In this document: piece after piece, positions 10,320 through 36,484 of the stretch
Layout of the letters: every line of letters begins with the position of its first letter
Position numbering within the stretch: position 1 is the stretch's first letter
IMG/VR virus record: IMGVR_UViG_3300032086_004087
Location: 1-39,054 of that record
Source of the DNA: a virus
Direction: 5' to 3' (one strand)
Length of the DNA: 39,054 nucleotides
Program-made: the position numbers and the translations under genes
The notes under the pieces: generated by a model
Seen by the model: only the letters and a program-made list of their open reading frames with translations
Told to the model about the DNA's origin: nothing
Database searches by the model: none

Positions 10320-11128
10320 ATGTTTTCGGTTCAACTGGGTTTATTGGGAAGGCCTTTTCTAACATGTATCCTGATGAGATACATGAACACTCTAGAGACG
10401 ATGATAATCCTTTATATAAAAATATTTTATATTTTATAAGTACTACTGATAACTATAATGTCCATAATTATCCTACAAAAGATATTGAGACTAATTTAAT
10501 TAAATTAATTAGAGTTTTAGAAAATTGTAAAAATACAAATACTGTTTTTAATTTTATTAGCTCTTGGTTCGTATATGGGAACGTAGTCTTACCCGCTAAA
10601 GAAAATAGTAATTGTCAGCCAACAGGTTTTTATAGTATAACAAAAAAGTGCGCGGAAGATTTGCTTATAAGTTATTGTAAGACTTTTGATATTAAGTATC
10701 GTATTTTACGATTAGGTAATGTTTATGGTAAAAATGATAAAGGCGTTTCAAAGAAAAAAAATGCTTTACAGTACTTAATTAATGAAATAAAAAATAATAA
10801 AGATATTAATCTTTATCATGGTGGTGATTTTATAAGAGATTACATTCACGTTGATGACGTATGTAGAGCTATATATACAGTGTTATCAAATAATATGATT
10901 TATAATGATATAATAAACATAGGGTCCGGTATACCATATAAATTTATAAATCTTATGAACTTTGTCAAAAAACAAACTAATTCTACAAGTAAGTTTATTA
11001 CTATAGAACCTACAAATTTTCATAAACTAGTACAAGTTAAAGATATGTACTTAAACATTGATAAATTAAACAGTTTAGGGTATAGTCCTAAGGTTGATAT
11101 ATATACCGGTCTAAAACAATTATTATGA
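10307..11128 (+). CDS. Extended SDR sugar-nucleotide reductase/epimerase
   Basis: This 273-residue protein has the NAD(P)-binding GSTGFIG at residues 8-14, a SSWFVYG segment, and the catalytic Y109-x3-K113 (YSITK). RDYIHVDDVCRAI is the usual extended-SDR C-terminal motif. It overlaps the DdhC-like gene by 13 bases. In dideoxyhexose pathways DdhC is followed by an SDR such as CDP-abequose or CDP-paratose synthase that reduces the 4-keto group. That role is inferred here from position only; an epimerase is equally possible by sequence. Confidence 0.7.
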   Translation: MDTIDVFGSTGFIGKAFSNMYPDEIHEHSRDDDNPLYKNILYFISTTDNYNVHNYPTKDIETNLIKLIRVLENCKNTNTVFNFISSWFVYGNVVLPAKENSNCQPTGFYSITKKCAEDLLISYCKTFDIKYRILRLGNVYGKNDKGVSKKKNALQYLINEIKNNKDINLYHGGDFIRDYIHVDDVCRAIYTVLSNNMIYNDIINIGSGIPYKFINLMNFVKKQTNSTSKFITIEPTNFHKLVQVKDMYLNIDKLNSLGYSPKVDIYTGLKQLL

Positions 11129-11943
11129 AACAATCTGGTACAATAATCGTAAAATTACAAGGTGGTATAGGTAATCAATTATTCCAATGGGCTTATTACA
11201 AAGCTGCTAAAGAGTATTATAATATAGAGTCCTATATAGATATAAGTTTTTATAATAATCAAATAGGAGTTACTCCGAGAGAATTCCAATTAAACCAATT
11301 TCCTCACATACAATATGATATTTTTGATATTACTAAGATTGCTGAATTAAAAACAAATGTTAGAAGGATTGCTGACGACTTTGTTAATAGAGACATATTG
11401 CATCCTTGGAGATATTCTCAACATGATATTAATTATCTTGATGGTTATTGGCAAAGCGCCAAATACTTTTCGTGTATTAATAATACTATAAAAGAAAATC
11501 TCGCCCCGGCAAATACTTTTAATAAAGATATAATTTTACCAGGATCAACCTCTTTACATGTTCGTCGTGGAGATTACGTTAAAGTACCACAATTCCACCC
11601 AACTCAGTCTATTAATTATTATAATAAAGCAGTTGAGAGTATAGGTACGTATAATAAACTTTATGTTTTTTCTGATGATATATCTTGGTGTAAGGATAAT
11701 TTACATTATAAAGATATAGTTTTTATACAAGACAAAAAAGAGTCAGAATGTTTATGGCTTATGTCACAGTGTGAAAATAATATACTCGCAAATTCTAGTT
11801 TTAGCTGGTGGGGATCGTGGTTGAATTCTAATTCAAATAAAAGAGTCATAGCCCCTAAAAAATGGTTTGGTACAGGGTATGATAATAAAATTAATTGTGA
11901 AGATATTATTTTAAGTGATTGGGAGATAATTGATGGAGATTAA
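11125..11943 (+). CDS. GT11 alpha-1,2-fucosyltransferase-like
   Basis: VKLQGGIGNQLFQWAYYKAA (residues 9-28) is the GT11 N-terminal motif. HVRRGDY (145-151) is the HxRRxD donor-binding motif of alpha-1,2-fucosyltransferases, and NSSFSWWGSWLN is the conserved third block. At 272 residues it is typical of bacterial GT11. GT11 enzymes transfer L-fucose from GDP-fucose, which Gmd and Fcl in the same operon can provide. Translation is coupled: its start overlaps the stop of the preceding gene. One of two GT11 genes in this window. Confidence 0.9.
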   Translation: MKQSGTIIVKLQGGIGNQLFQWAYYKAAKEYYNIESYIDISFYNNQIGVTPREFQLNQFPHIQYDIFDITKIAELKTNVRRIADDFVNRDILHPWRYSQHDINYLDGYWQSAKYFSCINNTIKENLAPANTFNKDIILPGSTSLHVRRGDYVKVPQFHPTQSINYYNKAVESIGTYNKLYVFSDDISWCKDNLHYKDIVFIQDKKESECLWLMSQCENNILANSSFSWWGSWLNSNSNKRVIAPKKWFGTGYDNKINCEDIILSDWEIIDGD

Positions 11944-12751
11944 TTTATTTGATAATAATTTTAGTCATACTACGTATGCAAACCCTCATCGCCCTGTAGA
12001 TAATTTATCTTATAAGAAACCCCCTGTTATTGAATGGGATGGCGTTACAGTTTTTACAGATGAGTTTTGTTTAACTGACATACCACATAAAGTAAACAGT
12101 AGATATAAAATAGCATGGGCTTTAGAAAGTCCCGCTATCAAGCCAGCCGTTTATAATCACTGGGAAGACTTGGTTAACGTTTTTGATAAAATATATTTAT
12201 GTAATCCAAATATTAATCACCCAAAAGTAGGAATAATTGAATACGGTACATGCTGGATACCATTAAAAGAATGTAAAGTTTATAACAAAACTAATTTACT
12301 TTCCATAATTGCCTCGGAAAAAAGACATACTATTGGTCAAAAACTTCGGCACGAAGTAATACAAAGTATACAAAGAGATATTGATGTTTGGGGTCGTGGA
12401 TATAATAATTTTGAAAACCGACTAACACCATTTAAACAATATATGTATTCTATTGTAATAGAAAATTGTGTTTACCCAGGGTATTATACAGAGAAGTTAT
12501 TAGATTGTTTTGCGACTGGATGTATACCTATATATTATGGTTGTCCCAACACAAAGAGTAGGTTTGATGAGAGAGGTTTCTATACATTTAGTAATATCAG
12601 CGAGCTTCATGACATACTTAACTCTATTTCTATAGAAGATTATAATTCTAAATTAGAATATGTAAATTATAATTTTAATCAAGTAGAAAAATACTCTTCA
12701 CCTGATAAAAATTTATTAAACAATTTAATAGAAGACGGGTTTATTCATTAA
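11933..12751 (+). CDS. GT10 fucosyltransferase-like
   Basis: SIVIENCVYPGYYTEKLLDC (173-192) followed by GCIPIYYG is the GT10 signature region (FENS...YxTEK...GxxPIxxG) for GDP-fucose binding. GT10 enzymes make alpha-1,3/1,4-fucose linkages, though some members of the superfamily transfer other sugars. I chose ATG 11933 over the TTG at 11930; GGGAGA lies just upstream. With 272 residues it is shorter than most GT10 enzymes, and the N-terminal half is divergent. It overlaps the GT11 gene and precedes an epimerase gene by two bases. Confidence 0.82.
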   Translation: MEINLFDNNFSHTTYANPHRPVDNLSYKKPPVIEWDGVTVFTDEFCLTDIPHKVNSRYKIAWALESPAIKPAVYNHWEDLVNVFDKIYLCNPNINHPKVGIIEYGTCWIPLKECKVYNKTNLLSIIASEKRHTIGQKLRHEVIQSIQRDIDVWGRGYNNFENRLTPFKQYMYSIVIENCVYPGYYTEKLLDCFATGCIPIYYGCPNTKSRFDERGFYTFSNISELHDILNSISIEDYNSKLEYVNYNFNQVEKYSSPDKNLLNNLIEDGFIH

Positions 12752-12753
12752 CA

Positions 12754-13635
12754 ATGAAATATGTAGTTATTGGTGGTAGTGGTTTTATTGGTCAACATAT
12801 TATAAATGAAATCGCTTCTCACGACTCTAATTATTCTATTATTAATATAGATATAAACAATCCACCGCGTGGTAACAATAATATTGTATCTAAATTTTAT
12901 CGATCAAATATATGTCAAGATAATATATCTCGGTTTATTAGAGATGTAGATGTTGTTTTTTTGCTTGCGGGAGAAATAAACGTACAAGAATCTATTTCTG
13001 ACCCTGTATTATATAATAATACTAATGTTAATGGTGTATTAAAGGTGTTAGAACAGTGCAGACTTAACGGGGTTCGTCGACTTATTTTTAGTTCTTCTGC
13101 GAGTGTTTATGGTAATACATTAAAAACACCGATAACTGAAGATGTACCTGTTGCCCCACTAAGCCCATATGCTCTACAAAAACATATTGGTGAGCAGTAT
13201 TGTCAATTATATTCTAATATCTATAATTTAGATACTATATGTTTGCGATATTTTAATGTTTATGGAGAAAACAACCGTAAAAACAACACATATTCTTCTG
13301 TAATTAATATTTTTACTAAACTCAAAGAACAAAATCTACCTTTAACAATATATGGTACCGGGCAACAACAAAGAGATTTTGTTTGGGTACAGGATGTTGC
13401 AAGAGCAAATTTTTATGCTGGTCAATGTAATACCTTTAAAGGTGGAGATATTATTAATATTGGTACTCAGCGTGGTACATCAATTATTGAGCTTGCTAAA
13501 TTATACAACCACCCTATTAATTTTTTACCACAACGAATAGAACCAAAGAATTCTATTGCTGATATAACAAAGGCCAAAAAAATATTAAATTGGTCACCGA
13601 CTTGCAATATTAAAGAGTGGTTAATAAGTCTTTAA
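12754..13635 (+). CDS. NAD-dependent sugar-nucleotide epimerase, GalE-like SDR
   Basis: The 293-residue protein begins MKYVVIGGSGFIGQHI with the GxxGxxG fold motif, then FSSSASVYG and Y139-x3-K143 (YALQK). LRYFNVYGENN and RDFVWVQDVARA complete the extended-SDR pattern. SSSASVYG is the epimerase form of the active-site loop rather than the TDE/SSE form of 4,6-dehydratases, so a GalE- or WbpP-like C4 epimerase is the best reading. The substrate cannot be told. Confidence 0.82.
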   Translation: MKYVVIGGSGFIGQHIINEIASHDSNYSIINIDINNPPRGNNNIVSKFYRSNICQDNISRFIRDVDVVFLLAGEINVQESISDPVLYNNTNVNGVLKVLEQCRLNGVRRLIFSSSASVYGNTLKTPITEDVPVAPLSPYALQKHIGEQYCQLYSNIYNLDTICLRYFNVYGENNRKNNTYSSVINIFTKLKEQNLPLTIYGTGQQQRDFVWVQDVARANFYAGQCNTFKGGDIINIGTQRGTSIIELAKLYNHPINFLPQRIEPKNSIADITKAKKILNWSPTCNIKEWLISL

Positions 13636-13641
13636 AATCAT

Positions 13642-14565
13642 ATGTTTAAATTGTTAGTTACTGGAGGTACAGGATTAGTTGGTTCTTCCATACCCACAGT
13701 TCACGACCATCACTCGAATATTAAATTAAGCTCAAAAGATGGTAATTTAGTAGATAAAGAAGAGACAAATAAATTATTCTCATTACATAAACCAACTCAT
13801 GTCGTACATACTGCAGCTCGTGTAGGAGGTGTTGGTGGAAATATGAGCGCAAAGGGTGCTTATTATTATGATAATATAATGATAAACACTAATGTTTTAG
13901 AAGCATGTAGAATTTATGAAGTTACCAAGCTCGTCTCATTACTTTCAACATGTGTTTTTCCAAACGATATAGAATATCCACTTACAGAAGACAAATTTCA
14001 TTTAGGCGAACCTCATGAGTCTAATTACGGTTATTCGTATGCGAAGCGAATGATTGATGTACAGTCTAAAGTATATAGGGAACAATACGGAGTAAACTTT
14101 GTTAATGTAATTCCAACTAACATTTACGGGCCTCATGATAATTTTGATACAAAAAACGGTCACGTTTTACCATCTTTAATACATAAATGTTATTTAGCTA
14201 AAAAGAATAATACAGATTTAGTTATATGGGGTTCAGGTAACCCGTTAAGAGAGTTTATATATAGTAAAGATATTGGTAAATTAATTATTTGGGCTTTAGA
14301 GCACTATAATGAACCAGAACCTATTATATTTTCACCGTCAGAAGAAATATCTATTAAAGATTTAGTCGATCTCATCGTTAAAGCAGTCGGGTTTACAGGA
14401 AAGGTTATATTTGACACTACAAAACCAGAGGGACAATTCCGCAAACCTTCCGATAATTCTAAGCTTCGATCTTATTTACCAGATTTTGAGTTTACCCCGA
14501 TTGAAACTGGTATAAAAGAAACAGTTGAATGGTTTGAAACCAATTTTGAACATGCAAGAAAATAA
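13642..14565 (+). CDS. fcl: GDP-L-fucose synthase (Fcl/WcaG)
   Basis: Fcl converts GDP-4-keto-6-deoxymannose to GDP-L-fucose by epimerisation at C3 and C5 and reduction at C4. The 307-residue product has VTGGTGLVGS (6-15), HTAARVGGVGGN, typical of this enzyme, LLSTCVFP for the catalytic serine block, and YGYSYAKRM with Tyr and Lys of YxxxK. LREFIYSKDIG and the EGQFRKPSDNSKL tail are also diagnostic. It overlaps gmd, its pathway partner. Identification is secure. Confidence 0.93.
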   Translation: MFKLLVTGGTGLVGSSIPTVHDHHSNIKLSSKDGNLVDKEETNKLFSLHKPTHVVHTAARVGGVGGNMSAKGAYYYDNIMINTNVLEACRIYEVTKLVSLLSTCVFPNDIEYPLTEDKFHLGEPHESNYGYSYAKRMIDVQSKVYREQYGVNFVNVIPTNIYGPHDNFDTKNGHVLPSLIHKCYLAKKNNTDLVIWGSGNPLREFIYSKDIGKLIIWALEHYNEPEPIIFSPSEEISIKDLVDLIVKAVGFTGKVIFDTTKPEGQFRKPSDNSKLRSYLPDFEFTPIETGIKETVEWFETNFEHARK

Positions 14566-15535
14566 AAAAACAGCTATCATTACCGGTATAAACGGTCAAG
14601 ACGGTTCATATTTAGCAGAGCTATTAATTTCAAAAAATTACAATGTAATAGGTACACTAAAACGTAATTCTGTATCAGAAAACCAAACATCACGTATTTC
14701 TGAATTAAGAGATCTTAATAAGGTTACATTAGTTTATGCCGACATGACTGATTTTTCTTCTTTAGTGAGAGTAATTCAGAAATATAAGCCCGATGAAGTA
14801 TATAATTTAGCAGCTCAATCTCATGTACGTATATCTTTCGATCAACCAGTATATACAGCGAATACGGTTGCAATAGGAACTCTTAACTTGCTTGAAGCAA
14901 TTAAGCTAATTAAACCTAGCGCAAAAATATATCAAGCTTCTTCTAGCGAAATGTTTGGTAATAATATTGACTCTGATGGTTTTCAAAGAGAGACTACCCC
15001 TATGACACCTGTGTCTCCGTATGGTTGTTCAAAGGTCTTTGCTTATAATATTTGTAACAATTATAAAAATAGTTATGATATGTTTATTAGTAATGGTATT
15101 TTGTTTAATCACGAATCTCCCAGAAGAGGTACAAATTTTGTAACTAATAAAGTTGTAAAAGCAGCAGTAGAAATAAAGAAAGGCTTACTAGATGCATTAC
15201 CTATGGGTAATCTTCAAGCAACAAGAGATTGGGGACATGCGAAAGATTACGTTGAAGCTATGTGGCGTATACTTCAGCATGATAAGCCAGATAATTTTGT
15301 ATGTGCTACAGGAATATCTCACTCCGTACAAAATTTAATAGAATATGTCTTTGGAAAATTAGGTCTAGATTGGTCAGAATATATAACTGAAGATGAGCGC
15401 TTTTTGCGACCAGAAGAGTTAAGAGATTTAAAAGGAGATTCTAGCAAATTGAGAAATCAACTCAATTGGGCTCCCACATATACATTTGAAACAATGCTAG
15501 ACGAGATGATTGATTACTGGGTCGACTTAAAATAG
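14552..15535 (+). CDS. gmd: GDP-mannose 4,6-dehydratase (Gmd)
   Basis: Gmd makes GDP-4-keto-6-deoxy-D-mannose from GDP-mannose. TGINGQDGSYLAELL (11-25) is the Gmd signature, QASSSEMFG the dehydratase active-site loop, and SPYGCSKVFAY supplies YxxxK. NHESPRRGTNFVT and the RPEELRDLKGDSSKL tail are typical. I prefer ATG 14552, inside the end of fcl, because it puts the GxxGxxG motif at residues 12-18; a start at 14525 would only add residues encoded within fcl. Length 327 residues. With fcl it gives a complete GDP-mannose to GDP-fucose route. Confidence 0.94.
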   Translation: MQENKKTAIITGINGQDGSYLAELLISKNYNVIGTLKRNSVSENQTSRISELRDLNKVTLVYADMTDFSSLVRVIQKYKPDEVYNLAAQSHVRISFDQPVYTANTVAIGTLNLLEAIKLIKPSAKIYQASSSEMFGNNIDSDGFQRETTPMTPVSPYGCSKVFAYNICNNYKNSYDMFISNGILFNHESPRRGTNFVTNKVVKAAVEIKKGLLDALPMGNLQATRDWGHAKDYVEAMWRILQHDKPDNFVCATGISHSVQNLIEYVFGKLGLDWSEYITEDERFLRPEELRDLKGDSSKLRNQLNWAPTYTFETMLDEMIDYWVDLK

Positions 15536-15539
15536 TATC

Positions 15540-16463
15540 ATGATTACCAACCCTTATATTGGGTCTGATGGTAGGTTAGGTAATCAGCTATTTCAATATG
15601 CTGCTCTCAAATCTCTAGCGTTAAAAAAGAAATACGACTTTGTATTACCGGTTTTTAACGATAAGTCTTTTCAAGACCAGTCATGTTTGTTGAATAACTT
15701 TAATTTAGATTGCCCATTATCTGATTTAAATAGTTTAACTAACACATATATTGAACCGACAAGGATGCACACTGCGTGGACCTTTAATAAAATAGCTAAT
15801 TCAACTGGTTTCGATCATAATTTTTTTAACCTATCTGACAATACTAGTATTCGTGGCTTTTTCCAACATTTAAAATACTTCATAGAGTATGATTCTATAT
15901 TTCGTAAAGAGTTCACTCTCAAACAATCTATAATATTAAAAGCTAAAAATATATTATTAAACTATAGAAAAAAATTTCCAGACTATAAGTTTGTTTCTGT
16001 GCATATACGTAGAGGAGATGTAGTCTTTAATCCGACAATGTTTAAGAATTATGGAGAGAAGATGTATGGTTCAGATATAACAAGATTATGCCCTAATTCT
16101 GTTTACGGTCAATATTTCTTAAAGGCAAAAAAATATTTTGATTACGACTATAGTATGCCTAGAGTTAAGTTTTTAGTTTTCGTAGGTGGTAATCGACATA
16201 ATGAGTTAGATGAACGTCAGTGGTTTAATAATAGTTTTCTTGGAGATAGCTATATTTACGCATCTACAGATGACCCCCTTGTAGATTTTAGCTTGATATC
16301 TCAATGCGATTATAATATACTATGTCATGGTTCTAGTTTTGGTTGGTGGGCAACCTATCTAAGCGAAGAGACAAATGAAAAAGTTATGATAGCCCCATCT
16401 GACTATTTTGTAGATGGACATTCTCCTACACGTATACTAAACTATAGATATACTTTAATATAA
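15540..16463 (+). CDS. GT11 alpha-1,2-fucosyltransferase-like (second copy)
   Basis: GRLGNQLFQYAALKSLA (11-27) and HIRRGD (155-160) are the GT11 motifs, followed by HGSSFGWWATYLS, the third block. At 307 residues it is about 35 longer than the GT11 protein at 11125, with an insertion after HxRRGD. The two share motifs but not overall sequence, so they are probably not a recent duplication and may make different linkages. It directly follows gmd by four bases. Confidence 0.88.
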   Translation: MITNPYIGSDGRLGNQLFQYAALKSLALKKKYDFVLPVFNDKSFQDQSCLLNNFNLDCPLSDLNSLTNTYIEPTRMHTAWTFNKIANSTGFDHNFFNLSDNTSIRGFFQHLKYFIEYDSIFRKEFTLKQSIILKAKNILLNYRKKFPDYKFVSVHIRRGDVVFNPTMFKNYGEKMYGSDITRLCPNSVYGQYFLKAKKYFDYDYSMPRVKFLVFVGGNRHNELDERQWFNNSFLGDSYIYASTDDPLVDFSLISQCDYNILCHGSSFGWWATYLSEETNEKVMIAPSDYFVDGHSPTRILNYRYTLI

Positions 16464-16465
16464 AA

Positions 16466-16903
16466 ATGCGCTTAATATCACATAGAGGAAATTTAACCGG
16501 ACCAGACGCTAAAACAGAAAATTCTCCTATACAAATTCAAAAGGTACTTGACTTAGGTTATGAATGTGAGATAGACGTGTGGTATATAGATGGGAACTAT
16601 ATTTTAGGTCATGATGAACCTACGTATAATGTACCAGAATATAATTTAACGCATCCAAAGCTTTGGTGTCATGCTAAAAATCTTGAAGCCTTACAACAGA
16701 TGTTAAAAAATGATAAGATTCATTGCTTTTGGCATGAAACAGATCAGTATACGGTCACCTCTCAAAAGCATATTTGGACGTTCCCTGGTAAGTTTGCTTC
16801 AGATAATTGTGTTATTGTAGATAATTCAAAAAACCCTCCTAATTATAATTGTACAGGGGTGTGTTCTGATTATGTCGAACTATATAAAGCACGTTATTTT
16901 TGA
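16466..16903 (+). CDS. Short glycerophosphodiesterase-like protein
   Basis: LISHRGN (residues 3-9) gives the His-Arg-Gly start of glycerophosphodiester phosphodiesterases, with CEIDVW supplying E35 and D37 and LGHDEP a second His (H49). These are the catalytic and metal residues of the GDPD barrel. The protein has only 145 residues, against roughly 230-300 for full enzymes, so it is a shortened member. It sits directly before a HAD-nucleotidyltransferase fusion and overlaps it by 32 bases. A glycan phosphodiester role is an inference. Confidence 0.6.
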   Translation: MRLISHRGNLTGPDAKTENSPIQIQKVLDLGYECEIDVWYIDGNYILGHDEPTYNVPEYNLTHPKLWCHAKNLEALQQMLKNDKIHCFWHETDQYTVTSQKHIWTFPGKFASDNCVIVDNSKNPPNYNCTGVCSDYVELYKARYF

Positions 16904-18257
16904 TTTAGACGGGGTATTAATAGATAGTAGAGATTTACACTATTACGCCCTCAATGATGCTCTTCGGGCGATTGATGAATCTTATGTAATAACAAGAGAA
17001 GAACACCTTTCTTCCTATGACGGAAAGACAACCACCACCAAACTCCAACTACTTACTCAGCAAAAACAGTTACCAGTTGATAGATATAATGAAGTATGGG
17101 AGTTAAAACAAAAGTATACTAGAGAGCGTCTTCAGTCTATACCCGAAAACTTAGAGCTACAGCAATTATTCAAGCATTTAAAAGATAGTAAGTTAAAAAT
17201 CTCTATTGCATCTAACGCTATCCGACAGACTGTTATTACATCTCTTACTCAAATAGGGGTTATAAAATATTGTGACTATATACTAGCTAATGAAGATGTG
17301 TTTCTCCCTAAGCCTAATGCGGAGATGTACATGAGATGCATGATATATACGAAATGTAATCCTGATGAAACTGTAATTATCGAAGATTCTCACACAGGGA
17401 GAAAGGGGGCATTAAGGAGTGGTGCACATTTATGCCCAGTCACTGGTCCAGATGATGTTACATTTGATTATATCACTAATTTTATTAATATAAAAAACAA
17501 CACTATGCAAGAAATTAAACCAAAATGGTTAGGAGGAGATATGAATGTGTTAATTCCGATGGCAGGAGCTGGTTCTCGATTTGAAAAGGCTGGCTATACG
17601 TTCCCTAAACCATTAATTGATGTTAACGGTAAACCAATGATACAAACTGTAGTTGATAATATTAATATTGACGCGAATTATATTTTTATCGTACAAAAGT
17701 CTCATTATGAACAGTATCACTTACAAACAGTTTTAGAGAATATTGCACCAAATTGTAAAATAGTACAAGTCGATGGTGTAACTGAAGGAGCAGCATGTAC
17801 TACTCTACTTGCTAAAGAGTATATTAACAACGACAAACCGCTAGTCATGGCAAATTCCGATCAATTTGTTGAGTGGGATAGTAATGAGTTTATGTATTCT
17901 ATGGTAGGAGACAATGTTACAGGCGGTATTTTAACTTTCAAGTCAACACACCCTAAATGGAGTTATGCTAAATTAGGAGATAATGGTTTTGTTACTGAAG
18001 TAGCAGAAAAGAAACCTATTTCTGATACCGCAACAGTTGGTATTTATTATTGGTCTAAGGGTTCTGATTATGTAAAATACGCAGAACAAATGATACAAAA
18101 AAATATTAGAACAAATAATGAGTTTTATGTATGTCCTGTTTTTAATGAAGCTATAGGAGATGGAAAAAATATTAAAATTTTTGATGTCCCTAAAATGTGG
18201 GGTCTTGGTACACCAGAAGATTTACAATTATTTTTAAGTAATGATAAAAATAAATGA
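16872..18257 (+). CDS. HAD phosphatase - sugar nucleotidyltransferase fusion
   Basis: Two enzymes are joined in 461 residues. Residues 1-215 are a HAD hydrolase: FDLDGVLIDS with D11/D13, SIASNA (motif II), KPNAEMY (motif III lysine) and VIIEDSHTG (motif IV). Residues 224-461 are a nucleotidyltransferase: NVLIPMAGAGSRFEKAGY and FPKPLIDVNGKPM form the NTP-binding site, MANSDQ the metal site, and WGLGTPEDL the C-terminal block. A sugar-phosphate phosphatase plus nucleotidyltransferase suggests activation of a sugar for this cluster. A strong ribosome-binding site before Met224 could also yield the second domain alone. Confidence 0.85.
   Translation: MSNYIKHVIFDLDGVLIDSRDLHYYALNDALRAIDESYVITREEHLSSYDGKTTTTKLQLLTQQKQLPVDRYNEVWELKQKYTRERLQSIPENLELQQLFKHLKDSKLKISIASNAIRQTVITSLTQIGVIKYCDYILANEDVFLPKPNAEMYMRCMIYTKCNPDETVIIEDSHTGRKGALRSGAHLCPVTGPDDVTFDYITNFINIKNNTMQEIKPKWLGGDMNVLIPMAGAGSRFEKAGYTFPKPLIDVNGKPMIQTVVDNINIDANYIFIVQKSHYEQYHLQTVLENIAPNCKIVQVDGVTEGAACTTLLAKEYINNDKPLVMANSDQFVEWDSNEFMYSMVGDNVTGGILTFKSTHPKWSYAKLGDNGFVTEVAEKKPISDTATVGIYYWSKGSDYVKYAEQMIQKNIRTNNEFYVCPVFNEAIGDGKNIKIFDVPKMWGLGTPEDLQLFLSNDKNK
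17531..17543 (+). promoter_or_regulatory. Strong internal Shine-Dalgarno and start at a domain boundary
   Basis: AGGAGGAG at 17531-17538 precedes an in-frame ATG at 17541 (Met224 of the fusion), exactly where the nucleotidyltransferase domain begins. Most genes here have weak or no such sequence. The GGA-GGA-GAT codons also encode the linker, so this could be chance. Confidence 0.4.
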
Positions 18258-18876
18258 ATATTTTGATAAAGTATTTTTAATTACTTGTTATCATACTAAA
18301 GATAGACTATCTCATGTTGTTCCTTATTTAAATAGTAGAGGTATCCACCCTGAAATATTTTTCGCTCCGTTTAAAGAGCGTTTTCACTATTCTTATTATA
18401 ATAAGCAACCCATATGGCCCGGAGCTCATTCTTTATCATGTGCTTATGAGCAGCTTTTTCAAAAATGTTTGTATGATAAAGATGTAAAAACTGCTTTATT
18501 CATAGAAGACGATATCATATTAGCTGATGATTGGGATGTACAGCTAAAAAATATTTGGTTTGAACAAGATAAAGATTGGTATATTTTAAAAGAGAGTAAC
18601 GGTACTCATTTTTTCGCTATGAGTCGAGAAGCTATTGCTGATTTCTTGAACAAGTATGCAGCAGATACATACCCTATTGATCTCGCAATTAACGATTTAC
18701 AAGATCAAAAAATAACTAATAAACTTAATATACGCAACCAACCTAGTTTATTTACTACCCAATCTACCGGAGGTTATAATCATATTACTGGTAAAGAATT
18801 TCTCGATGGAGAGAAAATACCATCTACAGTAGAAATACCTAAACGTTTGAGACAAGATTTAGTTTTTCATGCTTAA
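18241..18876 (+). CDS. GT25-like glycosyltransferase
   Basis: The 211-residue protein has FDKVFLITCYHTKDRLSHVV near the start, matching the opening of GT25 (LPS beta-glycosyltransferase) enzymes. TALFIEDDIILADDW provides the EDD metal-binding motif, and the SLSCAYEQLF segment corresponds to the conserved G/S-xx-S-H region. It overlaps the fusion gene before it by 17 bases and the sulfotransferase after it by 8. GT25 members transfer galactose or glucose, but the donor is not readable here. Confidence 0.72.
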   Translation: MIKINEYFDKVFLITCYHTKDRLSHVVPYLNSRGIHPEIFFAPFKERFHYSYYNKQPIWPGAHSLSCAYEQLFQKCLYDKDVKTALFIEDDIILADDWDVQLKNIWFEQDKDWYILKESNGTHFFAMSREAIADFLNKYAADTYPIDLAINDLQDQKITNKLNIRNQPSLFTTQSTGGYNHITGKEFLDGEKIPSTVEIPKRLRQDLVFHA

Positions 18877-19525
18877 ATTCGGATTTATACATATACCTAA
18901 AACTGGTGGCCATTATGTACACCGGTGTTGTAATTTTGAGAAAAATAATATACATAATTTCTGTCATGATGCTTATCATGATATGACTGTTATAGGGTGG
19001 GATTCTTGGAATCCTGATACAGGCTTCGATATAAATAGGGAATCATGTTTTAAAGGTTATAAGCACGCGGTTAAAAAACATTCGATTGATGAGTTATTTA
19101 CTGTTGTACGTAATCCGTTTGATTTGTTAGTGAGTTATTATTTTTATATTGACTGTACCGGCTGGGCTAATTGTAATAAAATACATAATTTTAATTCTTT
19201 TAATGAATTTATTGAAGGTTATTTAAACCCTAGTATAAACTGGCACTACCCTATCATACATAAACATATATTTGGTCAATTGTATGATGAATCTCGGTTA
19301 GTTGTTAAAAAAGAAAACATTTTGCGATTAGAAACTATTAACAAAGATTTAACAAATTTTAAAGAGCGTTATAATTTAGATATTATTACTGATTTTAAAC
19401 GAATATGTAATATAAACCCAAATAGACCGTCAAGAGATTATAAAGATTTTTATACATCAAAACAGGTTAAAAAATTAGAAGAAAAATTTGGGGATATTTT
19501 AACTACTTTTAATTATAGTTTTTGA
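18869..19525 (+). CDS. Sulfotransferase-family protein
   Basis: The 218-residue product begins MLKFGFIHIPKTGGHYV, with HIPKTGG the 5'-phosphosulfate loop that binds PAPS. TVVRNPFDLLVSYYFY is the 3'-phosphate-binding R-x-P-xx-x-xx-S-x-Y block. This is the carbohydrate sulfotransferase pattern, so sulfation of the glycan built by the upstream enzymes is the likely role. It is the last gene of the plus-strand operon and overlaps the convergent minus operon by 13 bases. PAPS would have to come from the host. Confidence 0.82.
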   Translation: MLKFGFIHIPKTGGHYVHRCCNFEKNNIHNFCHDAYHDMTVIGWDSWNPDTGFDINRESCFKGYKHAVKKHSIDELFTVVRNPFDLLVSYYFYIDCTGWANCNKIHNFNSFNEFIEGYLNPSINWHYPIIHKHIFGQLYDESRLVVKKENILRLETINKDLTNFKERYNLDIITDFKRICNINPNRPSRDYKDFYTSKQVKKLEEKFGDILTTFNYSF

Positions 19526-19926
19526 TTTTTATGTATTGGTTTTATCCATATAAACGTTTCAGATATTAATAATAAATTATACATTAAAACACGTGGGTTT
19601 AATGTATCAGGAGTTTTAAAATAATTTTCTAAAGACTTATTATTCCATTTTTTATTGGAGTTTTCTTTGTACAACTCGTATGTATGTGTGATGTTTTTTA
19701 CAGCGCTTTTGTTAAGTAAAATAAAATTATCTAAGATACGAAACATATTATTCTTTTTATCTGAAATTTCCTCTTTTAAAATAGCAATTGGTTTAACTTG
19801 ATTTAATAGGTGTAAGTATTCGCAGTAACCGGTAAAATTTTTATTAAAACTAACACACAAGTCAACATTTGACAATAATTTTAGTTTATCAAAGTCCGTA
19901 TTTTTAATTAATGTAATTTTATGCAT
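19513..19926 (-). CDS. Hypothetical protein, 137 residues
   Basis: I do not recognise this protein. It begins MHKITLIKNTDFDKLKLLSN, is lysine- and asparagine-rich, and has no clear catalytic motif or signal peptide. FNKNFTGYCEYLHLLNQVKP and ENYFKTPDTLNPRVLMYN are the only distinctive blocks. It is the last gene of the minus-strand operon and overlaps the end of the preceding paralogue by eight bases. Size and position fit a small accessory of the glycosyltransferase-like array. Confidence 0.6.
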   Translation of the reverse strand: MHKITLIKNTDFDKLKLLSNVDLCVSFNKNFTGYCEYLHLLNQVKPIAILKEEISDKKNNMFRILDNFILLNKSAVKNITHTYELYKENSNKKWNNKSLENYFKTPDTLNPRVLMYNLLLISETFIWIKPIHKNQKL

Positions 19927-20761
19927 GCAGTTTTCTTAAAAATTCTTCTCCAAATTCGTATATAATTTCAATCTCGCTTGGTGTAGGGGCTTTTTTAGTT
20001 TTAGGTTGTATGGGACAACCGGCCCTATATATGTATGTAGGTATATCTTTATAATAAACGTCAATGTTATCTACTATAGTTTTCTCTAACCACATATTTC
20101 GCCATTGTTTTTGTGTCGTAGTAAGTTGTTTTATTATTAGTTCTTCTAGAAGGTTATCATACTGTGGGTCTAATACTTCTAAATATAGTCTATATATTTG
20201 ATTTTTAGTAAAATTTTTCGCAAATTTTTTAATTGAGTTAATATCTCCAACGAAAATAAAATCATCTAACGACGGATAATGGGTTCCACCTAAATTTGTA
20301 CGAGATATATTAATTATACCCGGATTTTTTATAATAAAGTCGTGTATTTCTTTTAATTTTTCTTTTTGAAAGAGTATTTCACTTATTGCGTCATATCTAG
20401 TTACTATTACCAAGTCATAATAATTATTATTAATATTTTTTACACCTTTCTCAAAAGATCTCCATTGATTTATATTTTCTCCCTTTCTTATTACATCGAA
20501 AATATAATCGTTTTTTATTAATGCAGTTTTTTTATATAAATTGCTAATTCTTTTAAACTCTTGAGTGTAGTTATTAACTTGAAATATTCCGTTATATGTA
20601 TCAACTAACTTTTTTTCAATTTCTTGCGAGGATGTTAATTTATCATTTACATTCCACGCATGACCAAAATAATCTACATTATATAACTCATCTATAGTTA
20701 TATATTTTGAAGTAAATTGATATTGTCTAGGTAAACCAAAAAATATTATCGCTATTTTCAC
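19919..20761 (-). CDS. Array paralogue 5: glycosyltransferase-like protein
   Basis: This 280-residue protein is the most divergent of five tandem paralogues. It keeps the family frame: MKIAIIFFGLPRQYQ at the start, VDYFGHAWN near residue 30, a glutamine-tryptophan block (INQWRSFEKGV), and YDLVIVTRYDAI in place of the more usual FKYDVVxRxRxD. The first 40 residues look like a beta-alpha nucleotide-binding half, and R-x-D may act as a metal/donor motif. No numbered glycosyltransferase family is claimed. It overlaps the preceding paralogue as ATGA. Confidence 0.6.
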   Translation of the reverse strand: MKIAIIFFGLPRQYQFTSKYITIDELYNVDYFGHAWNVNDKLTSSQEIEKKLVDTYNGIFQVNNYTQEFKRISNLYKKTALIKNDYIFDVIRKGENINQWRSFEKGVKNINNNYYDLVIVTRYDAISEILFQKEKLKEIHDFIIKNPGIINISRTNLGGTHYPSLDDFIFVGDINSIKKFAKNFTKNQIYRLYLEVLDPQYDNLLEELIIKQLTTTQKQWRNMWLEKTIVDNIDVYYKDIPTYIYRAGCPIQPKTKKAPTPSEIEIIYEFGEEFLRKLHA

Positions 20762-21588
20762 GTATAACTCAAATAAGTTTTTTTTATTATTTCAATACAT
20801 TTATCATTATCATTACTATCGAAATATTTTTTCAATAACTCTCCGTTTATTGATGGTCGAATTAAATTTCTACATATTTTTTTCACCAATTCTCCTTCAT
20901 CGACATTTAGCTTTAATTTACGGAAGTAATTATACAGCTGAGTATGAGGATTTGTTTGACCAAAATTACCGCACGATGTAATGTTCAATAATATATCGTG
21001 CCAAATTAAATCTTGGGCCGTATTACTACCAATTATCGTCGCATATTCTATTAGTGGTTGACCTTGTTCTAATTTCATCCAACCAACAAACACATCTGTT
21101 ATGTTTTTTTGTATTTGAGGAAAATACAAATTTTCATAGTCTTCAGATTCAATAAAAAATGTGTCAAACCTTGTCTTTATTTGTATGTCGTACTTGAACC
21201 CTTCTTGTTCTTCATACGCTTGCTTCATTCTGTTTACTTCTTGACTACTATACCACTGACATATTGACCCGTAGTTAGTAGACATGTACTTCTCATAATC
21301 AAAAGGGCTATGTATTATAGGGTTTGTTTTTAAAAAGTCTATTAACGCTGTTTTTTCTTGCACGTTAACCCATATGGGCTCATATATATCATTTAACTCA
21401 TCTTGTAATTGTTTAGATTTGTGTTGTTGCAAGCATTTACCTGTACCGTCATTAGTACCGGGTTTAGTATAAGAATTCCACGCGTGTATAAAGACATCTA
21501 CATTATACTTTTCTTTAAATCGTTTTATCGTGTAAAAAGTATTTTTGTACTCCCGTGGCTCTCCACTTAATGTTAAGCATATTCTCAT
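20758..21588 (-). CDS. Array paralogue 4: glycosyltransferase-like protein
   Basis: The protein (276 residues) has MRICLTLSGEPREYKNT at its start, VDVFIHAWNSY near residue 30, then CQWYSSQEVNRMKQAYEE and FKYDIQIKTRFDTFF. Thus the G-x-P-R, D-x-F-x-x-A-W and YD-x-x-x-R-x-D marks shared by the array are all present. It overlaps both neighbours by four bases, so the whole array is translationally coupled. Assignment to glycan synthesis rests on the fold-like pattern and on context. Confidence 0.62.
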   Translation of the reverse strand: MRICLTLSGEPREYKNTFYTIKRFKEKYNVDVFIHAWNSYTKPGTNDGTGKCLQQHKSKQLQDELNDIYEPIWVNVQEKTALIDFLKTNPIIHSPFDYEKYMSTNYGSICQWYSSQEVNRMKQAYEEQEGFKYDIQIKTRFDTFFIESEDYENLYFPQIQKNITDVFVGWMKLEQGQPLIEYATIIGSNTAQDLIWHDILLNITSCGNFGQTNPHTQLYNYFRKLKLNVDEGELVKKICRNLIRPSINGELLKKYFDSNDNDKCIEIIKKTYLSYT

Positions 21589-22556
21589 TGTATTATTAAA
21601 CTTATATCTTTATCATTTGAATTTGTTACTTTATTGAGCAAATCATGATAACAATCTGGGGATTTTTTTTGCTTAAATTCTTCTTCTTTTAATAAAGATC
21701 TTTTTTCGTTAAAAATATTCTTCTCTTCACACACTCTGATTATATCTCTATAAACATGATACCCTTTTACGTCGTTTATAGTTGCGTCTAACGGTGTTCC
21801 TGATCTTAATATATTGTGTATAAAAATATTTTGTTTATATTTTACTGGTCGTATTCCTTTCACCCCAAATAGTAAAGCCCATTTTGCTTCTGGCGTTAGC
21901 GTAGTTTGAGGAAATAAAATATCTACAAAACGCTTTCTATCTTTTATATCTGTACGTTTAGATAACCAGCCTTTATACCATTCGTGTACGATTTTAGATA
22001 TATCTTTGTGATACACATCCATTGTCTTTGAGCTACCTATCCAAGGCCCGTGATCAGATATAGAAGCATATAGAGCATTATGTACAATATCAGTACGAAT
22101 GTTATTAATATGAATAAAATCGTCGTCATAATTATTAAAAAAATTTATTTTCGTATTATGACATACGTTTTCTATAGCAATATCGTATCTGCATCTTATA
22201 ACAACATCATATTTAAAATTGTGCTTTTTTTCATATTCTTGTTTTAATTTTATTACTTTCTCCGCTGCTATATACTGACCTAAGACCCGTTCTTGATCAA
22301 ACTTTTCTATGAGTATATTTTTGGGGTTGTATATTGTTTGTATATACTCTTTTAATTGGGAAATATTATTATATAATTTCTTCTCTTGTATATCAAGATT
22401 ATTTAATTTTAAATTTTTTGGGTGAATTACTGTATTGTTATCCCAGGCTTGGCAAAAATAATCTACATTCAGTTCGTTGAAGTATTTTTTTATATATTTT
22501 GAGCATTGTAATATACTTCTCGGTTCTCCGTTTAAACATACTGCGATTTTTTTCAT
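21585..22556 (-). CDS. Array paralogue 3: glycosyltransferase-like protein
   Basis: A 323-residue member opening MKKIAVCLNGEPRSILQCSKY, with VDYFCQAWDNN and the block KLKQEYEKKHNFKYDVVIRC followed by RYD. This middle block is nearly the same as in the two upstream paralogues, also at DNA level. The C-terminal ~100 residues are unlike the others, suggesting that acceptor specificity differs. It begins two bases after the paralogue at 22558. Confidence 0.62.
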   Translation of the reverse strand: MKKIAVCLNGEPRSILQCSKYIKKYFNELNVDYFCQAWDNNTVIHPKNLKLNNLDIQEKKLYNNISQLKEYIQTIYNPKNILIEKFDQERVLGQYIAAEKVIKLKQEYEKKHNFKYDVVIRCRYDIAIENVCHNTKINFFNNYDDDFIHINNIRTDIVHNALYASISDHGPWIGSSKTMDVYHKDISKIVHEWYKGWLSKRTDIKDRKRFVDILFPQTTLTPEAKWALLFGVKGIRPVKYKQNIFIHNILRSGTPLDATINDVKGYHVYRDIIRVCEEKNIFNEKRSLLKEEEFKQKKSPDCYHDLLNKVTNSNDKDISLIIQ

Positions 22557-22557
22557 T

Positions 22558-23625
22558 TTAATGTAATACTCTCAAATCGTGAGTTAATTCTTTTATTTGA
22601 TGGTTTAACCTCTCAATTATGTCTTTATTTTTATCGCTGTTTTCAACAAGTTTAGCTAGCTCTTGTTTCTTTTTGGCAAGCTCATTAGATCTATGCTCAT
22701 GCCACATTCTATCAGTAAGTTTTTTTAATGTATCTTTTGCCTCTCCAGTACTTGAAATATAGTTCATTGGACAACGCATTATTTCATGTTTAAAGTGTCC
22801 GTTAGAGTGGGTGGTTGCTGTACTTTTTGTTGTTATAAGTTGATTACCCCAAACAGCTTCCGGGTGTGGTTCATCACAATATCCAGGTATTACTCCTTTT
22901 TTACTTTTTAAATAAAGGAGACTGTTAACAGTAATATTTTCAAAAAAATTATCAATAGCTTCTGAACTTCCATAGTAATAATTGTCTCCTATACGCAACT
23001 GGCCTTGTAATACATCAATATATGAAACATGTATTTGATTATCTCTCCCTCTCAACTCCCAATCCCCGGTCCTGAGAAAATAATCCCACCATTTTTTATT
23101 ATTTTCTGGTGCGTGATGGTCAACCCACGATATAAACAAATCCGGTCGAACCCGAAAGACTACGTCATATTTAAAATTATTTTCTTGTTCGTATTTTTGT
23201 TTTAATTTATTACATTCTTCCCCGACAAAATATTGATTTATTTGTCTAAAAAAGTGAAATTCAAAGTTGTTGTATTGTTCGGGTAAGTGTTCTTTTACTA
23301 AAGCTTTGAGTTTAGCACGCTCATCATCAATAACATATTTTTTCGGTTTAAAAGAATTAATATAATTTTTTATTTCATCGTCTTTGAATTTAAAAACATG
23401 ATTCCCATCATAATCTGATGTATTACTTTCATGAAAATCATCTTTTCTCGTTTTTAAATACTTAGATTTTTGAGGAATAAACCCAGTTTGAGTTGTTTCA
23501 CTAGTATATATGAAAAAGTCTACATCTGCCCCTACCCGGATTCTATTAAAAAACTCAGACATATATGGAATACATGATTCTGGTTCGCGTATCACACCGC
23601 TTATACATACTGCTACTCTTTTCAT
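22558..23625 (-). CDS. Array paralogue 2, with coiled-coil tail
   Basis: This 355-residue member begins MKRVAVCISGVIREPESCIP, identical over its first 20 residues to the gene at 23622, and includes QINQYFVGEECNKLKQKYEQ and FKYDVVFRVRPDLF. The last ~45 residues are Lys/Glu/Leu-rich with heptad-like spacing (AKKKQELAKLVENSDKN), so a coiled-coil tail is likely; no other array member has it. It overlaps the gene before it as ATGA. Probable glycosyltransferase by context. Confidence 0.63.
   Translation of the reverse strand: MKRVAVCISGVIREPESCIPYMSEFFNRIRVGADVDFFIYTSETTQTGFIPQKSKYLKTRKDDFHESNTSDYDGNHVFKFKDDEIKNYINSFKPKKYVIDDERAKLKALVKEHLPEQYNNFEFHFFRQINQYFVGEECNKLKQKYEQENNFKYDVVFRVRPDLFISWVDHHAPENNKKWWDYFLRTGDWELRGRDNQIHVSYIDVLQGQLRIGDNYYYGSSEAIDNFFENITVNSLLYLKSKKGVIPGYCDEPHPEAVWGNQLITTKSTATTHSNGHFKHEIMRCPMNYISSTGEAKDTLKKLTDRMWHEHRSNELAKKKQELAKLVENSDKNKDIIERLNHQIKELTHDLRVLH
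23561..23625 (-). repeat. Duplicated 65-bp 5' coding segment, copy A
   Basis: It matches 24529-24593 at 62 of 65 positions. It covers the first 21-22 codons of array paralogue 2. Similarity at third codon positions shows recent duplication or gene conversion rather than mere protein-level constraint. Confidence 0.85.
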
Positions 23626-24593
23626 TTTATAGAATTTAATGTTAAATTTTTTTGTATAGTTCTCACGACTTCTTGAACCTTTTCTTTTGCTTTACCAGGG
23701 TCTGATATATATTCCATAGGTCCTCTTATAATATCGTTCCGAAAATACCCCATATTCGACCCGTGAGGTGTACAAGAACATTTGGTTGTATTTATTTGGT
23801 TACCCCAGCACGTTTCCCCAGTAAAAAACAAATGATAATAATATTTTATATTGAGCTTTTTGTACATGTCTTCATGATAAGATTTTGTCATGAGGGACTT
23901 TTTAAAATAAACTAAGGTATTAATAGTTATTTTATTTAAAAAGGTATCCATGGAGTTTGAATCTCCGTAAAAATAATTATCTGCAACAAATAAATTACCT
24001 TGAAAAACGTCTATCTTTTGTACATGAATCTCATTTAAGCGACCAGGTAAAAAGCGTTCACCTGCTCTTAAAAACTCATCCCATTCTTTTTCGTTTTTTG
24101 GTGCTCGATCGGGGTTCCAAGCAAGAAATAAATCTGGTCGAATTCTAAAAACTATGTCATATTTAAAATTATGCTTTTTTTCGTATTCTTGTTTTAATTT
24201 ATTACATTCTTCTGCGACAAAATATTGATTTATTTTTTTAAAGTTTTCACCTTTACATTCTTCATACTTTTCTGGTAAATAATTTTTAATAAGAGACTTG
24301 AGCTTTACCCGTTTGTCATCAATAACGTACTTTTTAGGTTCAAAAGAATTAATATAATTTTTTATTTCCTCCTCTTTTAATTTTACGACTTCTTTATTGA
24401 TAAAGTCTTCTTTTCTATCATTATAATAGTTAATTCTTTGAGCTTCATACGAAATATGAGAGTAATTGCTTGTATATATAAAGTAATCTACTTTAGCTCC
24501 TTCTTTAAGCTCATTAAAGAACGATTTTATATATGGAATACATGATTCTGGTTCGCGTATTACTCCACTTATACATACTGCTACTCTTTTCAT
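23622..24593 (-). CDS. Array paralogue 1: glycosyltransferase-like protein
   Basis: The 323-residue protein begins MKRVAVCISGVIREPESCIP and keeps KINQYFVAEECNKLKQEYEK and FKYDIVFRIRPDLFLAW. It is closest to the gene at 22558, sharing both the opening and the segments VDYFIYTS, YINSFEPKKYVIDD and GPMEYISDPGKAK. The distal part differs in an insertion around TGETCWGNQ. It is the first of the five paralogues after the radical SAM gene, separated by three bases. Confidence 0.63.
   Translation of the reverse strand: MKRVAVCISGVIREPESCIPYIKSFFNELKEGAKVDYFIYTSNYSHISYEAQRINYYNDRKEDFINKEVVKLKEEEIKNYINSFEPKKYVIDDKRVKLKSLIKNYLPEKYEECKGENFKKINQYFVAEECNKLKQEYEKKHNFKYDIVFRIRPDLFLAWNPDRAPKNEKEWDEFLRAGERFLPGRLNEIHVQKIDVFQGNLFVADNYFYGDSNSMDTFLNKITINTLVYFKKSLMTKSYHEDMYKKLNIKYYYHLFFTGETCWGNQINTTKCSCTPHGSNMGYFRNDIIRGPMEYISDPGKAKEKVQEVVRTIQKNLTLNSIK
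24529..24593 (-). repeat. Duplicated 65-bp 5' coding segment, copy B
   Basis: This is the partner of 23561-23625, with three mismatches. It covers the first codons of array paralogue 1. A second shared block lies around 23165-23250 and 24155-24240, with a weaker third copy near 22205-22280. Confidence 0.85.
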
Positions 24594-24596
24594 GTT

Positions 24597-25655
24597 TTAA
24601 TCAGTGATAAAATCCGTCAAATTACCCCAGTCGTGTTTATAATAATGATAATCTTGATTAAGAACTTTTAAAAACTGTACATGTTCCGGATGTTTTGAGT
24701 CAAAAATATTGTGAATGTTATAATCTTTATCTGTAAATGTCCCCCAGTTAAAAATTCGTGATGTATATGAATTAAAGTCATGAGCTTGAGCTATTTGAAT
24801 GAACTCAGGTATACTTTTATAATTATTTTTTTGTACACACATATCTAATCGGACACTTTTTAGTCCGAGTTGTTGTATAAAGTGTAAATTTTTCATTAAT
24901 TTATCCCAATCTCCACCTACTCTTACTTTATTATAATGTTCTTTTATACCTCCATCTAAACTTATTATGGCGCTAATATGTTCAGTAATCTTATGTAGGT
25001 TTTTCAACCGATCCCAACGTTTCTCATCAAATAGAACACCATTAGTTTGTAAGCATATACTTATTTCAGGGTTCTTTTTAAGATCTATTTTTCGCATTAA
25101 CTCAAAAAACGATGGAGAACCAAATGGATCGCCTGATCCGGTTATATTAAGATGTACCTTATGAGGTTTACTATGAATCATACGAAGTAGTCTTTTGTTT
25201 ATCATCATAGTAGTTTTATATTTGTCTGGTTCATTTTTCTCACTGTACTGTATCAAGTTTTTTCTACAACTAGGGCATCTTAAGTTACAAGATTTGTCGT
25301 AGCATAAATTAATAGTACTAGGTGGTTGAGCTACATCCATTTCAAACTCTAAAATAAACTTCATCTCATCTCCCCACTTACCATCAAGTACGTCTTGCCT
25401 AGTAGGCAATGTACCGTTTTGTATTTTTGGACATTCCTCCGCATTACACATACTAAAAGAGCCATCAAGTATAGACCGTCGAAAAGCTTTACTTCTTTTA
25501 CTATTCCATTCTTGGTAAAAATCTAAATCTGGAGTTAAATCTCCTATACGGTTATGATTTACCCATCGTGGACAACAGTTAAATAACCCCTTTTCTTGTA
25601 TTTCTAGAAAGGTCCAAGGATGTTCACAAAACTTAGTTGATAGTTCTTTATCCAT
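24597..25655 (-). CDS. Radical SAM protein with N-terminal Cys domain
   Basis: The 352-residue protein has the radical SAM cluster motif CNLRCPSC at C123, C127 and C130. TGSGDPFGS takes the place of the GGEP-like SAM motif, and CLQTNGVLF is the beta-4 strand. Ahead of it, residues 1-80 carry C10, C27, C28, C70 and C75 in a context (FCEHPWTFLEIQEKGLFNCC) that resembles the auxiliary-cluster SPASM/twitch domains, which usually follow rather than precede the barrel. It opens the minus-strand operon ahead of the paralogue array. Substrate unknown; modification of a sugar or of a peptide are both possible. Confidence 0.85.
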   Translation of the reverse strand: MDKELSTKFCEHPWTFLEIQEKGLFNCCPRWVNHNRIGDLTPDLDFYQEWNSKRSKAFRRSILDGSFSMCNAEECPKIQNGTLPTRQDVLDGKWGDEMKFILEFEMDVAQPPSTINLCYDKSCNLRCPSCRKNLIQYSEKNEPDKYKTTMMINKRLLRMIHSKPHKVHLNITGSGDPFGSPSFFELMRKIDLKKNPEISICLQTNGVLFDEKRWDRLKNLHKITEHISAIISLDGGIKEHYNKVRVGGDWDKLMKNLHFIQQLGLKSVRLDMCVQKNNYKSIPEFIQIAQAHDFNSYTSRIFNWGTFTDKDYNIHNIFDSKHPEHVQFLKVLNQDYHYYKHDWGNLTDFITD

Positions 25656-33539: not shown

Positions 33540-34223
33540 ATGAAAAATCAATACTATGGTTTTGAGCTGAAAGATATGATAAGGCAGTTTATTACTGCCT
33601 TTAATAGTATTGTAATAAACAGATATAATAAAAGTAAGACTGTTGTAGATCAGCTCAAAGTTGGTTTTTATTACGGTCCTAAAGAACGTGCACTTCATGA
33701 TGTAGTCAATAAAGCAGGCTCTTTAAAGCTCCCAGTTGTTGCTGTACATTATACATCTATTACTAGAGACCCTGATAGAGTCTTTAATAAGATACCTGGT
33801 TTTTATTTCAGCAAAGCACCTACAGTGAGCGCCGGTGCCCTTAATTCTGATCATTTAAAAACACCATTACCAGTTAATGTTGGTATCAACATGTCTATTA
33901 TGACAAAGTTTCAAACAGACATGGATCAAATTATTAGTAACTTTGCTCCCTATAACAATCCATATATTATAATGAGCTGGATTATACCTACATCTCAAAA
34001 CTTAGCTAGTAACTATGAAATTAGATCAGAGGTATTATGGTCAGGAGATATAAGTTTAGATTACCCTATTGAAGTATCTAGTACTCAACCTGCAAGGGTT
34101 ATTGCTAATACGAGTTTTACAATTAAAGGTTGGTTATTCAAAGGCCCAGCTGCTGAAGATACTAAGAACATTTTCACAATAGATCAAAAATTTGTCCCTG
34201 TGAGTGGGTTTGATTATGAGTAA
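33540..34223 (+). CDS. Tail sheath stabiliser/completion protein, gp15-like
   Basis: T4 gp15 caps the tail and joins it to the neck. This 227-residue protein repeats its layout: an N-terminal MKNQYYGFELKDMIRQF followed by INRYNKSK, then VGFYYGPKERALHDV (T4: VPITYASKEHF), LPVNVGINMSIMTKFQTDMD followed by QIISNFAPY (T4: YELSIFTRYEDDMFQIVEQILPYF), and FTIKGWLFKGP at the end (T4: FEVNGWMYPP). It opens the virion gene block behind a late-type promoter box. It is about 45 residues shorter than T4 gp15 at the C-terminus. Confidence 0.8.
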   Translation: MKNQYYGFELKDMIRQFITAFNSIVINRYNKSKTVVDQLKVGFYYGPKERALHDVVNKAGSLKLPVVAVHYTSITRDPDRVFNKIPGFYFSKAPTVSAGALNSDHLKTPLPVNVGINMSIMTKFQTDMDQIISNFAPYNNPYIIMSWIIPTSQNLASNYEIRSEVLWSGDISLDYPIEVSSTQPARVIANTSFTIKGWLFKGPAAEDTKNIFTIDQKFVPVSGFDYE

Positions 34224-34692: not shown

Positions 34693-34693
34693 T

Positions 34694-36481: not shown

Positions 36482-36484
36482 ATA
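36477..36484 (+). promoter_or_regulatory. Late-promoter-like box of the gp13-like gene
   Basis: CATAAATA matches TATAAATA at seven of eight positions, overlaps the portal stop codon and ends five bases before the GTG start at 36490. Confidence 0.5.

Follow-up and report, generated by a model that had tools for sequence, protein, structure and literature searches.

Hypervariable glycan islands are already known in T4-like phages. For the sugar clusters of marine T4-like phages, it had been left open whether they work or are filler, and one report leaves open a filler role for the lipopolysaccharide (LPS) clusters of cyanophages (PMC3037559). In chloroviruses, the active, inverting and cation-independent rhamnosyltransferase A064R-D2 was described as a new glycosyltransferase (GT) family, with A071R as a similar protein (PMC9614988). 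Here, we analyzed the 39,054-base IMG/VR virus record IMGVR_UViG_3300032086_004087 (the window, meaning the whole stretch of DNA), a fragment of a metagenomic virus. It carried five tandem glycosyltransferase-like genes on the minus strand (19919-24593), which lay at one end of an island that differed between close sister phages. New here were a GT-A family that was uncatalogued as judged by Pfam and NCBIfam models, its ordered arrays, and their fixed slot beside a radical S-adenosylmethionine (SAM) gene.

The tandem array and its predicted fold

The array comprised five intact open reading frames (ORFs) on the minus strand: g5 (23622..24593, 323 amino acids), g4 (22558..23625, 355 amino acids), g3 (21585..22556, 323 amino acids), g2 (20758..21588, 276 amino acids) and g1 (19919..20761, 280 amino acids, GTG start). 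The start codons were ATG or GTG, and neighbours overlapped by 4 nucleotides or stood 1 nucleotide apart. That these genes are five tandem paralogues, as the sequence-only reading had claimed, was borne out by two kinds of search. In BLASTP, g4 and g5 shared 50% identity over 320 amino acids (E 3e-110), the other pairs showed ~28–36% identity across the first ~150–200 amino acids, and all five were joined directly or via g2 and g3. A hidden Markov model (HMM) of 94 relatives from other phages, with the window excluded, found g5 (E 2.6e-37), g3 (7.7e-35), g4 (2.5e-34), g2 (3e-34) and g1 (2.6e-15), while the next ORF of the window reached E 0.03 and none of 960 shuffled ORFs scored above 6.7 bits. 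Copy g4 was nearest to g5, and this pair was the youngest duplication of the array. The tree placed g3 as the sister of g4/g5 (Shimodaira–Hasegawa-like approximate likelihood ratio test, SH-aLRT, 94), g2 grouped with members from the sister-phage contigs L056/L060 (96), and g1 was the most divergent.

The minus-strand run was headed by the radical SAM gene (24597..25655), followed by g5 to g1 and finally by g0 (19513..19926), a 137-amino-acid ORF of no known family. A truncated family member in g0 was not supported (E 0.03 in the same HMM search). With 4-nucleotide overlaps, gaps of 1–3 nucleotides and an 8-nucleotide overlap with g0, the genes appeared packed as in one transcription unit. A scan for promoters and terminators gave about chance level (56 found vs. 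45 ± 8.7), and its result was not used.

Ten residues were common to all five copies: G10, R13, D36, F38, Y145, D146, R152, D154, D205 and R290 (numbering throughout follows g5), so that the divergent g1 also kept the conserved G, R, D, F, YD, R, D, D and R. Because these residues were retained, none of the copies looked decayed. The G-x-x-R, D-x-F, YD and R-x-D motifs were present throughout, but the LKQ-x-YE and FKYDVV blocks, also attributed to every copy at first, were literal only in g3–g5; g2 carried MKQAYE and FKYDIQ, and g1 was without the YE part. The C-terminal parts had been described as different among the copies. They were indeed less identical than the N-terminal parts in nine of the ten pairs (62% v 42% for g5/g4), but the graded values, together with the retention of D205 and R290 in all five, indicated a gradient rather than a switch. 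It is plausible from this divergence that the C-half is the varied acceptor part.

In profile searches, phrog_13607 matched 71 of 76 relatives (best E 1.4e-57) and Pfam DUF7796 (PF25072) matched 33 of 76 (best E 6.8e-17); both carry no assigned function. Among the window genes, phrog_13607 matched g2 (1.8e-15), g3 (6.6e-10) and g1 (7.6e-8). Copies g4 and g5 had no direct match, were 29–36% identical to g3 and belonged to the same iterated HMM family. DUF7796 matched g3–g5 weakly (E 0.0003–0.005) and over part of the model only. Its cut-off of 27 bits was not reached by the window genes (best g5, 20.2 bits) and was cleared by a family member on the contig of L027 (30.6 bits). None of the 76 members matched a known GT model at E <= 0.01 in Pfam or NCBIfam, and NCBIfam gave zero matches of any kind. 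Neither the single-member nor the family-profile search of PDB sequences gave more than chance-level matches, e.g., Lon protease and FtsY. The earlier statement that the family fits no numbered GT family was thus supported, with only DUF7796 and phrog_13607 recovered by sequence (Pfam and NCBIfam; CAZy was not searched).

AlphaFold2 models were obtained for the g2 protein (predicted local distance difference test, pLDDT, 80; predicted template modelling score, pTM, 0.83) and the g5 protein (pLDDT 89, pTM 0.89). In Foldseek against the PDB, all 50 matches listed per model were nucleotide-sugar enzymes of the GT-A superfamily (E ~5e-5 to 8e-4, probability 0.96–1.00), among them GT6 BoGT6a, alpha-1,3-GalT, GT8 glycogenin, GT31 B3GalT5 and PBCV-1 A064R-D1. 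The best matches in a viral structure library came from uncultured phages, Synechococcus phages S-SKS1 and S-PRM1, and giant viruses; several were named glycosyltransferase and one was a DUF7796 protein. The chlorella-virus protein M177L was among the structural matches of g5. Of the Synechococcus phages, S-SM2 carries a family member (SSM2_209), and three structural relatives belong to S-SKS1. The glycosyltransferase-like nature of the array is therefore well supported at the level of the predicted fold, not by assay, and neither the HMM nor the structure searches gave a clear match to a known non-GT family. The escape of such enzymes from sequence annotation has a precedent, because A064R-D2 is active yet was missed by standard GT searches. 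Across the relatives, D154 was conserved in 99% and R152 in 97%. The R150-x-R152-x-D154 block is predicted to follow a mid-fold strand, where GT-A enzymes usually have DxD, a placement drawn from secondary structure.

Exchange of the island between phages

T4-type structural genes (gp15-like tail sheath stabiliser, gp20 portal and S77 prohead protease; 33540..38984, plus strand) occupied the right end of the window and identified the phage. Since its portal was ~31% identical to cyanophage portals, the window belongs to a distant T4-like phage. A portal search gave 80 relatives, the best of them 99–100% identical. Family matches were found in 11 of the 32 longer sister contigs and on both strands, with 2–9 matches in those reaching well into the region, which showed that the copy number was not fixed.

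Sister G052 shared with the window the helicase (97%), gp15 (99%), DUF366 (99%), PhoH (4242..5033, minus strand; 97%), QueE (98%), the ORF adjoining the radical SAM gene (98%) and the radical SAM protein itself (91%). However, its six family members had no orthologue among the five of the window (best 25–27%). The DNA of the two phages aligned at 84.6% over 1439-5877, 79% over 24575-26956 and 86.6% over 29145-37604. Inside 5878-24574, only the GDP-mannose 4,6-dehydratase gene (14525-15535, plus strand; aligned over 14559-15520 at 74%) and two ~100-nucleotide pieces were left. The exchanged island thus extended over 5878..24596, with phoH as the conserved flank on one side and the radical SAM gene as the conserved anchor on the other. 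DNA homology to the sisters ended at the stop codon of the radical SAM gene plus a few bases common to the starts of family members. The mismatch is unlikely to reflect a chimeric assembly, since a single sister contig matched both flanks, their order was unchanged and the distance between them was similar (18.7 v about 20 kb).

In L206, L208 and L209, three more close sisters (radical SAM protein 91–92% identical), the gene next after the radical SAM gene likewise belonged to the family. Their first members and that of G052 (L207) were mutually orthologous (65–93%), and the window was without that group. Of the 11 sisters compared, 10 had a family member immediately behind the radical SAM gene (50–92% identical); in the other one, G064, the nearest member was 1.6 kb away. 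The members themselves differed, which showed that the slot and the family were conserved and the genes within the slot were replaced. Conserved flanks with replaced content were thus found among close relatives, as in an O-antigen-like exchange locus. The array had no DNA similarity to phage records, and single-protein searches with g5, g3 and g4 found no close relatives among viral contigs, so no donor of the array was found.

The ratio of nonsynonymous to synonymous substitution rates (dN/dS) was 0.06–0.25 in 15 orthologue pairs and 0.25 in the g4/g5 pair, compared with 0.02–0.04 in backbone controls; several dS values were near or above 1, so the ratios are rough. They point to array genes that are constrained as proteins under strong purifying selection. 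The array changes through the replacement of genes rather than through rapid drift or exchange between copies.

A pattern and tblastn scan, run on both collections with near-identical search patterns, confirmed 63 family loci in viral contigs and 3 in bacterial and archaeal genomes. The family is common in viruses and its function is unassigned, so characterising one enzyme would give an annotation to many genes of phages and giant viruses. Altogether, 129 ORFs among the fetched loci and the window belonged to the family, with 1 to 11 matching stretches per contig, and tandem arrays were usual. Single virus records held nine matches (G068, 200.8 kb) and eleven matches (G001, 82 kb), the latter with at least six family genes as two nearby tandem groups of three. 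Relatives lay in glycan clusters, where they were accompanied by genes for nucleotidyltransferases, GDP-mannose dehydratase, GT7/GT25/GT1 and radical SAM proteins. Subfamily P directly preceded subfamily Q in every contig having both (L006/L007, L008, L011-L017, L029, L030, L032, L055 and L068; quick tree, SH-aLRT 99 and 94). This suggested fixed roles, e.g., successive steps of a pathway, rather than interchangeable variants, and a fusion of two family domains in L058 (5004-6752) fits such roles. Family domains were also fused to other sequence (L018:5732-7311, L012:3274-5007 and L071:4998-6476), and the fusion proteins of these four loci had ~490–580 amino acids.

Beside the arrays, DUF6071 (PF19547) was the commonest Pfam family (14 of 123 neighbours) and exceeded any known glycosyltransferase model. 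In many other phages, the array was preceded, immediately or one gene away, by a gene for a twitch-domain radical SAM protein (NF033640; e.g., L007:3619-5007, L008:2830-4248, L013:3608-5002 and L030:3587-4984). The window array likewise followed a radical SAM gene, but of a different subfamily, and membership of this gene in the N_Twi_rSAM group was rejected. Radical SAM enzymes and transferase arrays co-occurred, and a functional link between them is possible.

Roles considered for the array

The array is probably part of a soluble glycan-assembly module, carried in an exchangeable island beside phoH that would work much as bacterial O-antigen loci do. The five genes would encode soluble GT-A-fold glycosyltransferases of one uncatalogued family (phrog_13607, overlapping DUF7796). 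Their N-half (SGxxR, DxF, RxRxD) would bind the nucleotide-sugar donor, the faster-changing C-half would set the acceptor, and each copy would probably add one sugar, in sequence, to a glycan. Donors may be supplied by the neighbouring plus-strand genes, namely the GDP-mannose dehydratase, epimerases, aminotransferase and nucleotidyltransferase. The nucleotide-sugar and fucosyltransferase part of the island (9012..16463, plus strand) comprised a DegT aminotransferase, three epimerase-type genes, the GDP-mannose 4,6-dehydratase, two GT11 genes and a GT10 gene. A fusion of HAD and nucleotidyltransferase, a GT25-like gene (weak) and a sulfotransferase-like gene (weak) lay at 16872..19525 (plus strand). 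The whole glycan cluster spanned ~5 to 29 kb and additionally held GT4, GT2 and methyltransferase genes. The array would form the replaceable end of the island: phoH, the radical SAM gene and the head and tail genes would be inherited and the segment between them swapped, so that sisters would differ in which and how many family members they have, and probably in their glycan.

Several points weigh against this explanation. Transferase activity is predicted from the fold, and the TM-scores to solved GTs were modest (0.3–0.5). The GT-A superfamily includes nucleotidyltransferases too, with GMPPA/GMPPB at rank 40, and the family has no DxD motif, with RxRxD instead. The membrane-span scan, in which no window ORF passed and no fetched sister ORF had three or more spans, used a strict hydropathy threshold (1.9) and could have missed a flippase, which may also lie outside the contig.

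Alternatively, the island could make or alter the O-chain of the host LPS in infection and so block superinfection, with the array as a set of sugar-specific transferases. The presence of sugar-nucleotide genes and GT11/GT10 fucosyltransferases agrees with O-chain synthesis. The same explanation has been given for glycosyltransferase genes of the pelagimyophage hypervariable region (PMC7029224), and in cyanophages, LPS clusters may be located close to phoH (PMC3037559), as in the window. However, no family of flippase, polymerase or GtrA/B was matched in the window, no polyprenyl-phosphate transferase was seen there, and the strict scan of the fetched sister regions revealed no multi-pass membrane protein. 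We consider this role rather unlikely. With neither a membrane flippase nor a polymerase seen, cytoplasmic assembly on a phage protein seems slightly more likely than modification of the host O-chain, and a virion protein is the marginally preferred acceptor ahead of host surface polysaccharide; the two possibilities are not separable by sequence. For the glycan-assembly module, we tentatively suggest a phage "serotype locus" that sets the virion's own glycan, in which a virus-enriched, uncatalogued GT family with RxRxD for DxD (perhaps metal-independent) forms arrays that are block-swapped at a radical SAM slot in a T4-like clade.

The sequence-only reading had proposed a diversifying set whose copies might switch surface sugars, through recombination or selection of copies inside the phage. 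The tandem arrangement of the paralogues, whose N-half is more conserved than their divergent C-half, would agree with this. However, the copies had no long identical tracts (32 nucleotides at most, in g4/g5, and otherwise <=17), and half-shuffling was not seen, because the nearest relatives of the N- and C-halves agreed in subfamily for all P and Q members. An invertible block was rejected: the repeats at its ends were unconvincing, and inverted repeats of the kind expected for such a switch were not found. Reverse transcriptases and recombinases were absent among the ORFs scanned, and dN/dS was well below 1. Switching within the phage is thus very unlikely. The diversification idea was right in kind and wrong in place: copy number and content varied by sister, no exchange between copies was found within a phage, and diversity seems to arise between phages via island replacement.

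It is just as improbable that the array encodes DNA-modifying glycosyltransferases as in T-even phages. The window contained GTP cyclohydrolase I (FolE; minus strand), 6-pyruvoyl-tetrahydropterin synthase (QueD-like) and 4Fe-4S/radical-SAM (QueE-like) genes at 806-2900, which resemble the preQ0/7-deazaguanine pathway, possibly for DNA modification, and the backbone is T4-like. However, these genes lay outside the exchanged island, the neighbours of the array were fucosyltransferases and GDP-mannose dehydratase, sisters carried up to nine differing family matches, and no hydroxymethylase was seen in the window.

Non-functional filler for headful packaging would suit the sporadic distribution and variable content, but is extremely improbable given the intact frames, the conservation of putative catalytic residues in all five copies and the low dN/dS values of the orthologue and g4/g5 pairs. 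Taken together, strong purifying selection and the replacement of whole blocks at a fixed slot argue for clusters that work and for the kind of glycan made as the selected trait.

Other genes and comparison with known systems

Two cytidylyltransferase-like genes and an AAA_28 (NadR-kinase-like) gene (191-814, 2876-3316 and 3321-4067) may form a nicotinamide adenine dinucleotide (NAD) salvage set. A TnsA-like endonuclease N-terminal domain was located amid the structural genes (37839-38309) and was kept in the sisters (64–83%).

The family resembles the GT-A enzymes of GT6, GT8, GT31 and PBCV-1 A064R domain 1 (2p72) in its predicted fold, and the strand-loop position of RxRxD, as judged from secondary structure, resembles that of DxD. 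It differs from them in its ~10% identity, in having no Pfam or NCBIfam GT match and in the absence of DxD. Compared by description, it is like A064R-D2 and A071R in being virus-encoded and missed by standard GT searches (PMC9614988). The clusters of T4-like cyanophages and pelagimyophages are similar in that their sugar genes lie near phoH or in a hypervariable region that also holds radical SAM genes; paralogue arrays of the phrog_13607 family and replacement at a fixed radical SAM slot are not described in the available parts of those reports (PMC3037559, PMC7029224). Compared with bacterial O-antigen and capsule loci, the island of the window is phage-borne and showed no flippase or polymerase, but it shares with them conserved flanks around exchanged glycosyltransferase content.

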